Positions 40,491 to 46,002 of a stretch of 64,000 nucleotides of DNA are shown piece by piece (position 1 is the stretch's first letter; each line of letters begins with the position of its first letter). A program made the translations under genes and the position numbers. Source of the stretch: an uncultured Roseicyclus sp. (lineage in GTDB: Bacteria; Pseudomonadota; Alphaproteobacteria; Rhodobacterales; Rhodobacteraceae); NCBI GenBank assembly GCA_947494975.1, contig CANLXA010000002.1:248001-312000 (forward strand), written 5' to 3'. Under the pieces are notes generated by a model. It was not told where the DNA came from. It searched no databases and saw nothing but the letters and a program-made list of their open reading frames with translations.

Positions 40491-40679
40491 CTAGCGCAGG
40501 TTGCGGATCTGGCGGGTGGCGAAGAGCGTGACCGGCACGGCCACCAGCGCGCCGAGCGCCGCGGCGATCACGATGGGCTGCCAGCCGTCATACCCGGCGG
40601 CCAGAACACCGGTGATCGCGGCACCGGCAAGGGCGGTGGAGGCCATGATGAATACGAGAAGCGGCAGGCCGAGGCGCAT
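40491..40679 (-). CDS. small two-TM protein (commonly mis-annotated as CTP synthetase)
   Basis: MRLGLPLLVFIMASTALAGAAITGVLAAGYDGWQPIVIAAALGALVAVPVTLFATRQIRNLR. Confidence 0.65.
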   Translation of the reverse strand: MRLGLPLLVFIMASTALAGAAITGVLAAGYDGWQPIVIAAALGALVAVPVTLFATRQIRNLR

Positions 40680-41123
40680 GGGGGATCTCCCGATGAAGGT
40701 TGCGTGCGGCGGGAGTGTAGCGCGAGGCGCAGTGGGCCGCGTTGATGTGGGTCAAGATGGGGGGTGAGAGGCGTGCTGGAAACGGTCCAGCGGATTGTTT
40801 CAGGGCCGACCGGGCGGAGCCCCGGGGGCGATGGGGATGATCTCGCTAAAGCGGGTTGCCGAGATGGCCCGCGTCGCAGGCGGGGAGGAGGAGGAGCGGG
40901 AGGGCGAGGAGGGGGCGCATGGGGGAGGATGCGCCGAGTGGTGGAGGTTGGGCAAGGCTGGGTGTGTTGAGTGCGGAGGGCAGCGCCCGGACCGAGGGGT
41001 GGGCGAGAAGTGCCCGCACTGTGGGGGCGGTTCGAGCGCTGCCCGGCCTAGGGGCGGAAATAGTTCTCTGACAATAGCGTTACCACCGGTGTTTGAGATT
41101 TCAGCTACGAACATCATGGGTAT

Positions 41124-41981
41124 TCACGCATTACCGTACTCTGAAATGGCAAGTTGAACTCGCCTCACGGACATATGAGCAACTTCGGTCTCCGGATCCA
41201 TATCGAAAATAACTATGACTCTTTTCGGATCTCTATCTAACTCGCCCTCAATGCCAACAACAAACCTAATGCCAAATAATTTTTCTACCAATGAGTCATA
41301 TTCCTGTGGGGAAATATTGTCAGGGAGTAGAAAAACTTGGGGAAAAAATTTTGGAGCTAACGCTGCATGTAAGTTGGACTTGCGTGGGGAACTATCCGCT
41401 GTGAATTGGCGCAGGGAATTTCGAAGATCAGCTATTTGCCGTTTTGTTGCCTGGAGTTCTTCCAGAATAACTGTGTCCACTGGCGCATGTTCGACCTCAA
41501 TCTTGGCAACCTTAAATGACCCAAAGCTCTTTAGGAAACTGGTATCACCACCGCCATCTGCGGTTGATTTTATTTTTTCTTGAAGTTTTTTCTGAAATGC
41601 CTCGATTTGCGAGAACCGAAGATCACGCGGGTAACTGAGGTGTTCGATTGGTGAAGTGTCAAACGAAAATGGCGTTTTGTCGTCCTTGATTATGATGGTG
41701 GGTTTGTCAAAAGCCAATCTCATGCCTAATTCGAACATCACGTTGGGGTTCCGACCGCTTATATCGCAAACAACAACTGGGTTGTCGTAGAGGTTTTGAA
41801 CAATTCTCTTTTGGATAACACCCATCTCATCAGCGTCGCTCACTAAGTTTGGAGAAAATCCAGCAGATTTTATGGTTCGTTTCAAAATATTCAATACTTC
41901 TGACCAATGGGATTCGGAGCACCCATCAAACTCTGAAATCGGCATAACTATGCCACAGTTTGGTTCTTCTTCTGTAGTCAC
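41124..41981 (-). CDS. TIR-like / nucleoside 2-deoxyribosyltransferase-like Rossmann protein, orphan
   Basis: GIVMPISEFDGCSESHWSEVLNILKRTIKSAGF...NPVVVCDISGRNPNVMFELGMRLAFDKPTIIIKDD; AT-rich relative to flanks. Confidence 0.7.
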   Translation of the reverse strand: MTTEEEPNCGIVMPISEFDGCSESHWSEVLNILKRTIKSAGFSPNLVSDADEMGVIQKRIVQNLYDNPVVVCDISGRNPNVMFELGMRLAFDKPTIIIKDDKTPFSFDTSPIEHLSYPRDLRFSQIEAFQKKLQEKIKSTADGGGDTSFLKSFGSFKVAKIEVEHAPVDTVILEELQATKRQIADLRNSLRQFTADSSPRKSNLHAALAPKFFPQVFLLPDNISPQEYDSLVEKLFGIRFVVGIEGELDRDPKRVIVIFDMDPETEVAHMSVRRVQLAISEYGNA

Positions 41982-42101
41982 TTTTCTTGTCCGCCCTCTA
42001 CGAATTGGATTGCCCCATGTGCGCCAGTCTTACAGTTGTGGGCTACTGTGTCATCCTGATTGTGCCTCTCTTCTAGCTGTGCAATCCCAACTAACTAGCT
42101 G

Positions 42102-42319
42102 GTTAACAGCAGCGGAGCCGCCCCGTTATCTACAGGCCTGTCCGGGGCCCCCTTCTCGGCATCTTTTGCTGGGCAAAAGAGCCTGTCGGGCAGTGGGCGA
42201 TTTGGTGAGGCTGGGTGCTCCGTTCGTTAAGTAGGATGTTGGGGCGACCATTAAGTGCCAGAGCACGACCGTTGGGATCGCCGGTCCCAGGCCCGTCGAT
42301 GGCGGGGCTTTGGGGCGGG
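42102..42319. repeat. MITE/BIME-like inverted-repeat element, copy C, with internal hairpin
   Basis: Left GCGGAGCCGCCCCGTTATCTACAGGCC, right GGCCCGTCGATGGCGGGGCTTTGG; internal TCTTTTGC-TGG-GCAAAAGA (42162-42180). Confidence 0.6.
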
Positions 42320-42376
42320 TGTTTAAAGGAGCGCGGGGTTACTGGTGCGCCCGAATTTTATCTGTGTGGGGCGGCA

Positions 42377-42396
42377 GACTTTTGCGAGCAAAAGTC
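42377..42396. repeat. perfect hairpin GACTTTTGC-GA-GCAAAAGTC
   Basis: Read directly; same CTTTTGC arm as the hairpin inside repeat copy C. Confidence 0.8.
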
Positions 42397-42432
42397 GCTT
42401 TCCCCCACCGTTGAGGCGGGGCAAGCCCCGCC

Positions 42433-44232
<1,800 letters not shown>

Positions 44233-44528: not shown

Positions 44529-45227
44529 TCATTTTTGCCTCGATTGCTCAAGAAACAAGGCTCGCTGGTAGTCCTTGGCCAGCATTGCCGCCTGATACGC
44601 AGTTCTATTCGTGACGTCGTAAGTCTTGGACAATTGAGTGATCGATAGTGAGCCATCAAGTTTCGCAATGGGAACAAGGCAGGCGTACATGAAGCAGTCC
44701 GCTTCTTCTTCTAGGTCAAGGTTCTGCGCCTTTAGGGCCAAGGGGTCGGCGCTGCTTCCGCGGTGTTGATTGTGGGCGGCCCGGACCGTGGAAAGGGTGG
44801 CCGATCGAGCGCGAGCGATTAGTTTCCTTCGATGGCTTGGGAGATGAACATGTCCCAACTCGTGAGCGATAACTTCGAACGCGTGCCGGCGATTGGCGCA
44901 TCCAGTTTTCGCTCCGTAAAGGTGGTCCCAAATGAACTCACGCATAAAAACAATAGTTTCCCCGGAAAAGTCACAAAAGGCTTCGACACCTTCCATGAAA
45001 CCGCGTTCTGCGATGAAGTGCTGGTCGTCTGGCATGAAGTAAACGCCATCTGGGAGGCCATGCTGAATGGCTAAGAGTGCATCGAAGACGCCAAACAAGT
45101 CAGAAAATTTAGTTCGATAGACCGCAGCGGTGTCACAGACTTCCAAAAGCCGATTATGCCCCATGTTTCTTCGGGGGCGGTCGTCCCTCAAGTTGGAATA
45201 CGGAAACTTCGGGATTCTAATACTCAT
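44529..45227 (-). CDS. ImmA/IrrE family metallopeptidase
   Basis: FEVIAHELGHVHLPSHRR (HExxH) and downstream LDLEEEADCFMYACLVP. Confidence 0.85.
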   Translation of the reverse strand: MSIRIPKFPYSNLRDDRPRRNMGHNRLLEVCDTAAVYRTKFSDLFGVFDALLAIQHGLPDGVYFMPDDQHFIAERGFMEGVEAFCDFSGETIVFMREFIWDHLYGAKTGCANRRHAFEVIAHELGHVHLPSHRRKLIARARSATLSTVRAAHNQHRGSSADPLALKAQNLDLEEEADCFMYACLVPIAKLDGSLSITQLSKTYDVTNRTAYQAAMLAKDYQRALFLEQSRQK

Positions 45228-45231
45228 GGTC

Positions 45232-45552
45232 TTACTCCGGGAGGTAGTCATCGCCGCGCAAAGTTTGCATGAACGCAACAATCTTTTTGGCCTCTTCGGG
45301 CCCCTTGGGTCTAACCGATATCTTGTACTGGCTGATCTTCGCCAGAAATCGCAGTTCCTCAGCTTCGGATGCTGTAAGAGCGAACGCTTTAATGGTGGCA
45401 TCTACAAATGCTGTGGTCGGAGGCCGCGAGCCATTTAGAACCCTCGCCAGCAGTGCCGGAGATAGCCTCATTGAATTTGCGATGGATCGATAGCTCCGCG
45501 CGCTCTTGCGAGCCAGATCCTGAAACCTTTTCGAGAACGGGGAAATCGACAT
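45232..45552 (-). CDS. XRE-like helix-turn-helix protein paired with ImmA/IrrE
   Basis: MSISPFSKRFQDLARKSARSYRSIANSMRLSPALLARVLNGSRPPTTAFVDATIKAFALTASEAEELRFLA. Confidence 0.75.
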   Translation of the reverse strand: MSISPFSKRFQDLARKSARSYRSIANSMRLSPALLARVLNGSRPPTTAFVDATIKAFALTASEAEELRFLAKISQYKISVRPKGPEEAKKIVAFMQTLRGDDYLPE

Positions 45553-45663
45553 TTGGGCCTCCAAGTTTGAGCTAAGTATTGACGGTTTACGGAAATTGTC
45601 AACACAATATTGCGATAGGCCGGGAAAAGGCAACAAGATGTAGTGCTTCGGCTCGGCCAGCGC

Positions 45664-45830
45664 GTTAACAGCGGCCCCTGGGCCGCCGCGCCATCGTCAG
45701 GCTGCCCCCGGCACGGCGATTTGGTGAGGCCGGGCGCTGCACTTTGAGGGTACGGGATTTGGCGGGGATAAAGGGCGATGGCGGGACCGTCCGGTTCGCC
45801 GTACCGCGGCCCGAAGATGGCGCGGCTTCG
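45664..45830. repeat. MITE/BIME-like inverted-repeat element, copy D
   Basis: Left GGGCCGCCGCGCCATCGTCAGGCTGCC, right CGCGGCCCGAAGATGGCGCGGCTTCG. Confidence 0.65.
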
Positions 45831-46002
45831 TGTCGTGTGGTGGAGGTGAGAGAGCAGGGCTGCCGGTTTTGCGATTTCGTGAGGTTGGGGCCAGGGCATT
45901 TGGTGAGCATGAAGTGTTATTGCGCTGCCGGTTGAGTGCCGCACCGCGGCCCGACGATGGCGCGGCTTTGGGTCGGGCGGTGACCGTGAGAGAGCGGGGC
46001 TG
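45801..46002 (+). repeat. two direct 62 bp units at 140 bp offset (45801-45862, 45941-46002)
   Basis: GTACCGCGGCCCGAAGATGGCGCGGCTTCG... vs GCACCGCGGCCCGACGATGGCGCGGCTTTG...; 52/62 identical by eye. Confidence 0.7.

Follow-up and report, generated by a model that had tools for sequence, protein, structure and literature searches.

What could a solitary AT-rich gene beside lepA encode, and what does its position say about its role? NADases of the TIR type play a central part in the immunity of bacteria and eukaryotes and, to our knowledge, their recognition of phage is understood for only a few. An earlier note on the DNA analysed here (a stretch of 64,000 nucleotides from an uncultured Roseicyclus sp., hereafter the window) had described one open reading frame as an orphan TIR/deoxyribosyltransferase-like protein and a candidate defence or signalling effector. 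The open reading frame is genuine, has the sequence that was first quoted and lies, as reported, between lepA and a small membrane protein (a 62-aa ORF at 40491-40679). Its GC content is about 43% (0.43-0.48 across the ORF) against about 64% in its neighbourhood (0.61-0.70 on both sides), in agreement with the AT-rich islet originally perceived, and it is present once in the 4.55-Mb genome. Since 22 invariant residues are common to 119 of 119 relatives, the ORF is more than a product of chance. Its features are as follows:

41124-41981, minus strand: predicted one-gene sensor-effector, 285 aa, GTG start.
41457-41957, minus strand: constant N-terminal TIR/deoxyribosyltransferase-like domain, residues 9-175, supported by a single phmmer cluster of 142 members, AF2 and Foldseek.
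41730-41732, minus strand: codon of Glu84, the predicted catalytic nucleophile, in the motif DxSxxNxNVxFELG.
41763-41765, minus strand: codon of Asp73, at the end of the strand preceding the FELG helix.
41397-41480, minus strand: helical linker, residues 168-195; the break in family homology falls within or just after it.
41127-41396, minus strand: hypervariable C-terminal domain, residues 196-285, a small alpha/beta unit and predicted sensor.

The window protein passed no curated Pfam or NCBIfam model. Against PF05014 (nucleoside 2-deoxyribosyltransferase) it scored 13.8 bits, the cut-off being 28.8 bits, and its relatives likewise scored below; in PHROGs it fell into families of unknown function. 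The PADLOC TIR effector model PDLC00733 matched it with E=1e-7, over about 69 residues only. All 119 members of the alignment (A3) matched this model and no other PADLOC model, and PF10137 gave a weak match in one of them (E=0.03). Both models describe TIR effectors of CBASS and Pycsar systems, from which the family nevertheless differs in the shortness of the match, in having no adjacent cyclase gene (CD-NTase) and in that no nucleotide-sensor domain was recognised in it.

An AF2 model computed from the 119-sequence alignment had a mean pLDDT of 81, and much of residues 1-140 exceeded 90. The model contained an alpha/beta N-domain, one long helix (residues 168-195) where a coiled-coil-like linker had been proposed, and a separate C-terminal domain, also foreseen in the earlier note, with a beta-alpha-beta-alpha order; the pLDDT of this last domain was about 50-83 and confidence in the model is moderate. 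In Foldseek, nucleoside deoxyribosyltransferases (CtNDT, E=5e-6) together with DNPH1 (TM 0.6-0.7 by target length) formed the top class of structural matches; MilB, the TIR domain of SARM1 (TM 0.64) and the phage-defence TIR protein SpbK (9phb, TM 0.59) were also matched. The TIR/deoxyribosyltransferase-like fold first suspected from the sequence is therefore present. Searches of PDB sequences by phmmer and by profile gave nothing useful, and found neither SpbK nor the other fold matches; thus, the likeness to NDT, DNPH1, SARM1 and SpbK is one of fold. The alignment of 142 members shows strong conservation over residues 9-175 and an abrupt loss of it from about residue 184 (numbering of the window protein). 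The residues that never vary in these 142 are P14, H25, V47, I56, I60, D73, S75, N80, V81, E84, L85, G86, R88, D100, T103, F107, D108 and Y117. Two features that characterise the TIR/DrHyd (TDS) Rossmannoid domains were found, namely the alpha/beta Rossmannoid fold (AF2 and Foldseek) and a conserved Glu (E84) in the helix that follows the central strand. From motif and fold, we infer that E84 is the equivalent of the catalytic Glu of the TIR and NDT families. In its fold and its predicted nucleotide chemistry the family resembles the TIR-DrHyd-SLOG clade of nucleotide-processing Rossmannoid domains (PMC9503650). The survey of that clade reported viruses with only ARC-type DrHyd and few TIR proteins (PMC9503650), whereas the present family is common in viral contigs and has a constant/variable build.

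These matches raise the alternative that the protein is a phage or host nucleotide-salvage or base-modification enzyme of the deoxyribosyltransferase or CMP-hydrolase kind, the tail being an incidental regulatory domain. The top PDB matches belong to this class, which also has a Glu in an FELG/EIG-type motif, the best viral match is a phage 'CMP/hydroxymethyl CMP hydrolase', and some phage copies sit between replication genes. However, NDT and DNPH1 have a second catalytic Asp, which we take to lie in the helix just before the strand of the motif. Secondary structure and the presumed NDT spacing assign this helix, with some uncertainty, to positions 53-65, none of which has more than 6% acidic residues; no conserved Asp of this second type was found there, which argues against a housekeeping deoxyribosyltransferase. 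The family moreover lies far under the PF05014 cut-off, its gene is often antisense inside replication modules, and it differs from NDT and DNPH1 in its extra variable C-domain and its mobile, accessory distribution; a hypervariable tail, carriage by integrons and sporadic occurrence are ill-suited to metabolism. We regard a salvage or modification enzyme as unlikely.

The word 'orphan' did not survive a wider search. When 84,980 species genomes and IMG/VR were searched, with the best 80 of each set of relatives retained, relatives were found to be encoded at no fewer than 173 genome loci and on at least 107 viral contigs; a single-protein query of the viral contigs gave nothing, and the viral relatives were found with an alignment as query. 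For the best 80 of the 173 genome loci, identity with the window protein is 41-67% within the aligned segment. The carriers belong to Pseudomonadota, Bacteroidota, Verrucomicrobiota, Acidobacteriota, Planctomycetota, Thermodesulfobacteriota, Bacillota and others. On the N-domain tree the phylum labels are near-random (26 phylum changes, the mean after shuffling being 28.6), as expected of a gene that moves often, and the reading frames, called at related loci by a simple longest-ORF procedure, are intact in nearly all members. The gene occurs in one of two congeneric genomes searched and, at high similarity, in 4 of 397 genomes of the bacterial family; it is thus not a syntenic core gene, and the accessory distribution anticipated earlier holds. 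We found no paper on this protein family in a literature search that lay outside most subscription journals.

The two parts of the protein differ sharply in their conservation. At a phmmer threshold of 1e-4, the N-domains of 142 members form one cluster in which 10,011 of 10,011 pairs are linked, whereas the C-domains of about 100 aa fall, at the same threshold, into 95 clusters, 80 of which are singletons. In three pairs with N-domain identities of 98, 96 and 94%, tail identity was 31, 26 and 21%, respectively, random pairs being about 21% identical. Near-identical phages differ in the tail, with DNA homology lost at member residues 184-207. Phages L181 and L185 have 90.6% DNA identity from 599 nt upstream to codon 193, then 37-58%, and 92% again from 86 nt past the stop. 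In L138 and L149 the break is at codon 190 and homology is regained 46 nt past the stop; in L135 and L149 it is regained after 29 nt, in a short match of 52 nt; in L125 and L127 the break is at codon 207 and homology is not regained within the 600 nt compared. Since identity falls at the level of the DNA and recovers further on (29-86 nt past the stop in three of four swapped pairs), the tail is a replaced module and not the result of a frameshift. The tail of the window protein is a singleton. It has no relative in phages or plasmids, the 397 genomes of the bacterial family gave marginal matches only (E >= 0.004), and profile comparison did not support a relationship to the four largest C-domain classes. 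The largest class, with 20 members, has an invariant Cys and a near-invariant His-x-His (alignment A5 of 19 C-domains, e.g. L049:10538-10852), possibly a metal site; its model has a beta-alpha-beta-beta-alpha order and gave generic ferredoxin/S6-like fold matches only (E >= 0.0065).

An identical architecture, a constant N-part followed by exchangeable toxin tips, is found in polymorphic toxins, which are accompanied by matching immunity genes. But the return of homology 29-86 nt past the stop in three pairs leaves no room for an immunity gene swapped along with the tip, no partner recurs downstream, and the conserved part looks enzymatic rather than secretory, so that a toxin of this type seems very improbable. 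Specificity of some other sort is a further possible function of the variable tails. A constant enzyme joined to an exchanged tail is what is expected of a one-protein sensor-killer directed against phages.

Family members stand alone in temperate phages, and the position of the gene differs from phage to phage: for example, beside an integrase, in a lambda-type early region, or inside replication modules. At 16 of 47 viral loci the gene is antisense to both neighbours, for example between a large primase-like gene and a DNA polymerase-like gene (names inferred from sequence), as expected of cargo that is expressed on its own. Of 73 genome loci, 13 have an attC-like site where the gene stops, 0.48 being expected from shuffles, as against 0 of 64 viral loci; these counts are estimates from a stop-anchored pattern. 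Two earlier attC searches, one strict and one looser and scored, had lacked power, and a covariance model was dropped because MAFFT misaligned the variable loops. Cassette-type arrays are visible at the integron-carried relatives, and an attC overlapping or following the stop, the mark of an integron gene cassette, is found in some relatives and not in the window gene. No partner gene recurs near family members (149 loci). Single neighbours match DarG, AbiU, PD-T7-4 and CapP models, with no recurrent defence family among them, which makes a defence-island argument weak outside Rhodobacteraceae. The copy in E. coli phage 606R2 is split between two ORFs (L024 5929-6850), and that of the otherwise very similar phage 689R2 (L022) is intact; a separate gene annotated as TIR-like lies four genes upstream in both.

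Gene neighbourhoods also bear on a Thoeris-like arrangement, in which the N-domain would make a messenger of the cyclic ADP-ribose type for an unlinked receptor. The TIR-like fold would allow this, and cADPR-type products have been reported for TIR proteins such as SpbK and ThsB (PMC12847820, PMC11312562). Against it, no receptor gene recurs nearby, and the solitary carriage of the gene, across phyla and in integrons, points to a unit that works by itself; the own genome gave no STALD or ThsA_Macro match, which weighs little because control searches were equally silent. We consider such a signal maker unlikely, as we do the salvage enzyme, and favour the self-contained sensor-effector.

The place that the window gene occupies was compared with the 3' sides of lepA in congeners (L191-L201) and in other genera (L202-L230). 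The elements of this locus are:

41058-42096, no strand: accessory slot (islet) of about 1.04 kb, with approximate borders taken from flank alignments with congeners and from the GC dip.
40845-41057, no strand: conserved distal slot flank, single copy in the genome, with stretches of 87-93% identity common to L192, L193, L196, L198 and L199.
42120-42432, no strand: lepA-proximal slot flank, which holds dispersed repeats.
42433-44232, minus strand: lepA (EF4), core gene and anchor of the slot.

At 11 of 12 complete lepA loci in the window's genus, lepA is followed on its 3' side by an AT-rich insert, about 1 kb long, that usually differs from species to species; in L200 the flank is uniform in GC and runs on towards the next core gene. 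Among the congeners' cargo are two RelA/SpoT-domain proteins (PADLOC PDC-S33, best E=2e-93), a Fic protein (SoFic), a DUF5343 protein (PDC-M34A), and HNH, ATPase-like and small membrane-type proteins. In L195 (3663-4794) the slot protein is of a different build, with a TIR-effector match near its C-terminal end (residues 225-333). In other genera (29 loci), an AT-rich insert was recognised by eye in about 18 of 28 readable loci, and the products of those scanned include a UG13a-type DRT reverse transcriptase (E=4.5e-123), an AAA-TIR protein, and RelA/SpoT, HNH, DUF3800 and DUF2971 proteins. The 3' side of lepA is thus an accessory slot with rotating toxin- and defence-type genes across Rhodobacteraceae; no paper on a lepA hotspot or slot was found, most subscription journals being outside the search. 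The family gene itself adjoins lepA in the window genome, in Yoonia, Pelagimonas and Ascidiaceihabitans and in one MAG, and in two other Rhodobacteraceae genomes (L003/L028 and L004/L029) it lies at the 3' end of an ettA-like ABC-F gene. Neighbours of family genes also include LepA, class II and class I tRNA synthetase and GatB domains, and translation genes may be preferred anchors.

Two further observations concern the surroundings of the slot. A GC-rich dispersed repeat with a core like GTCGATGGCGGGGCTTTGGGGCGGG lies in the lepA-side flank (42120-42432) and beside a second islet (45798-45977), and recurs in partial form at 11 further sites of the genome. The second islet, also AT-rich (44529-45636), is on the other side of lepA and encodes an XRE-type HTH protein and a Zn-protease-like protein (PADLOC capP, E=1e-4; Pfam M48 below cut-off), a pair that resembles the ImmA/IrrE-type regulator and protease.

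The presence in the slot of toxin-type genes such as RelA/SpoT and Fic, and the broken copy in one E. coli phage, would fit a toxin or addiction module, or a decaying mobile gene, that senses no phage in particular. Yet no antitoxin partner was found, the N-domain is strongly conserved and nearly all members have intact frames; we hold this explanation to be quite improbable.

We conclude that the window protein is probably a solitary, horizontally mobile, one-protein abortive-infection system against phages, with catalysis and defence as its predicted activities. The C-terminal tail would recognise a product or state of phage infection, and this recognition would cluster or release the constant TIR/DrHyd-type domain, clustering being modelled on SpbK (PMC12847820). 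The N-domain would then cleave the N-glycosidic bond of NAD(P)+ or of another nucleotide by means of Glu84, and infection would abort. A defensive role has strong, though indirect, support in mobility, in a slot used in common with known defence-type genes, in phage and integron carriage and in tail swapping, all of which, like the fold and the invariant residues, were shown by computation. SpbK (266 residues), from ICEBs1 of Bacillus subtilis, offers the closest parallel in plan: binding of the phage portal by its small helical domain leads to clustering of the TIR domain, which then destroys NAD+ (PMC12847820). It is likewise a single small protein on a mobile element, with a TIR-fold domain and a second domain. 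The order of domains is, however, reversed, the window family having its putative effector at the N-terminus and its putative sensor at the C-terminus; there is no sequence homology, the family's putative sensor is hypervariable and swapped, and its activity is a prediction.

It is conceivable, if somewhat short of an even chance, that this is a cross-phylum family of one-protein immune receptors, in which a near-fixed TIR/DrHyd N-domain is recombined with unrelated C-domains, each sensing a different phage component, and which temperate phages, integrons and core-gene slots circulate. These results bring to light a widespread protein that escapes curated Pfam and NCBIfam models, and point to the 3' side of lepA as a defence slot in Rhodobacteraceae. 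Near-identical phages that differ in the putative sensor would be natural experiments on modular recognition.
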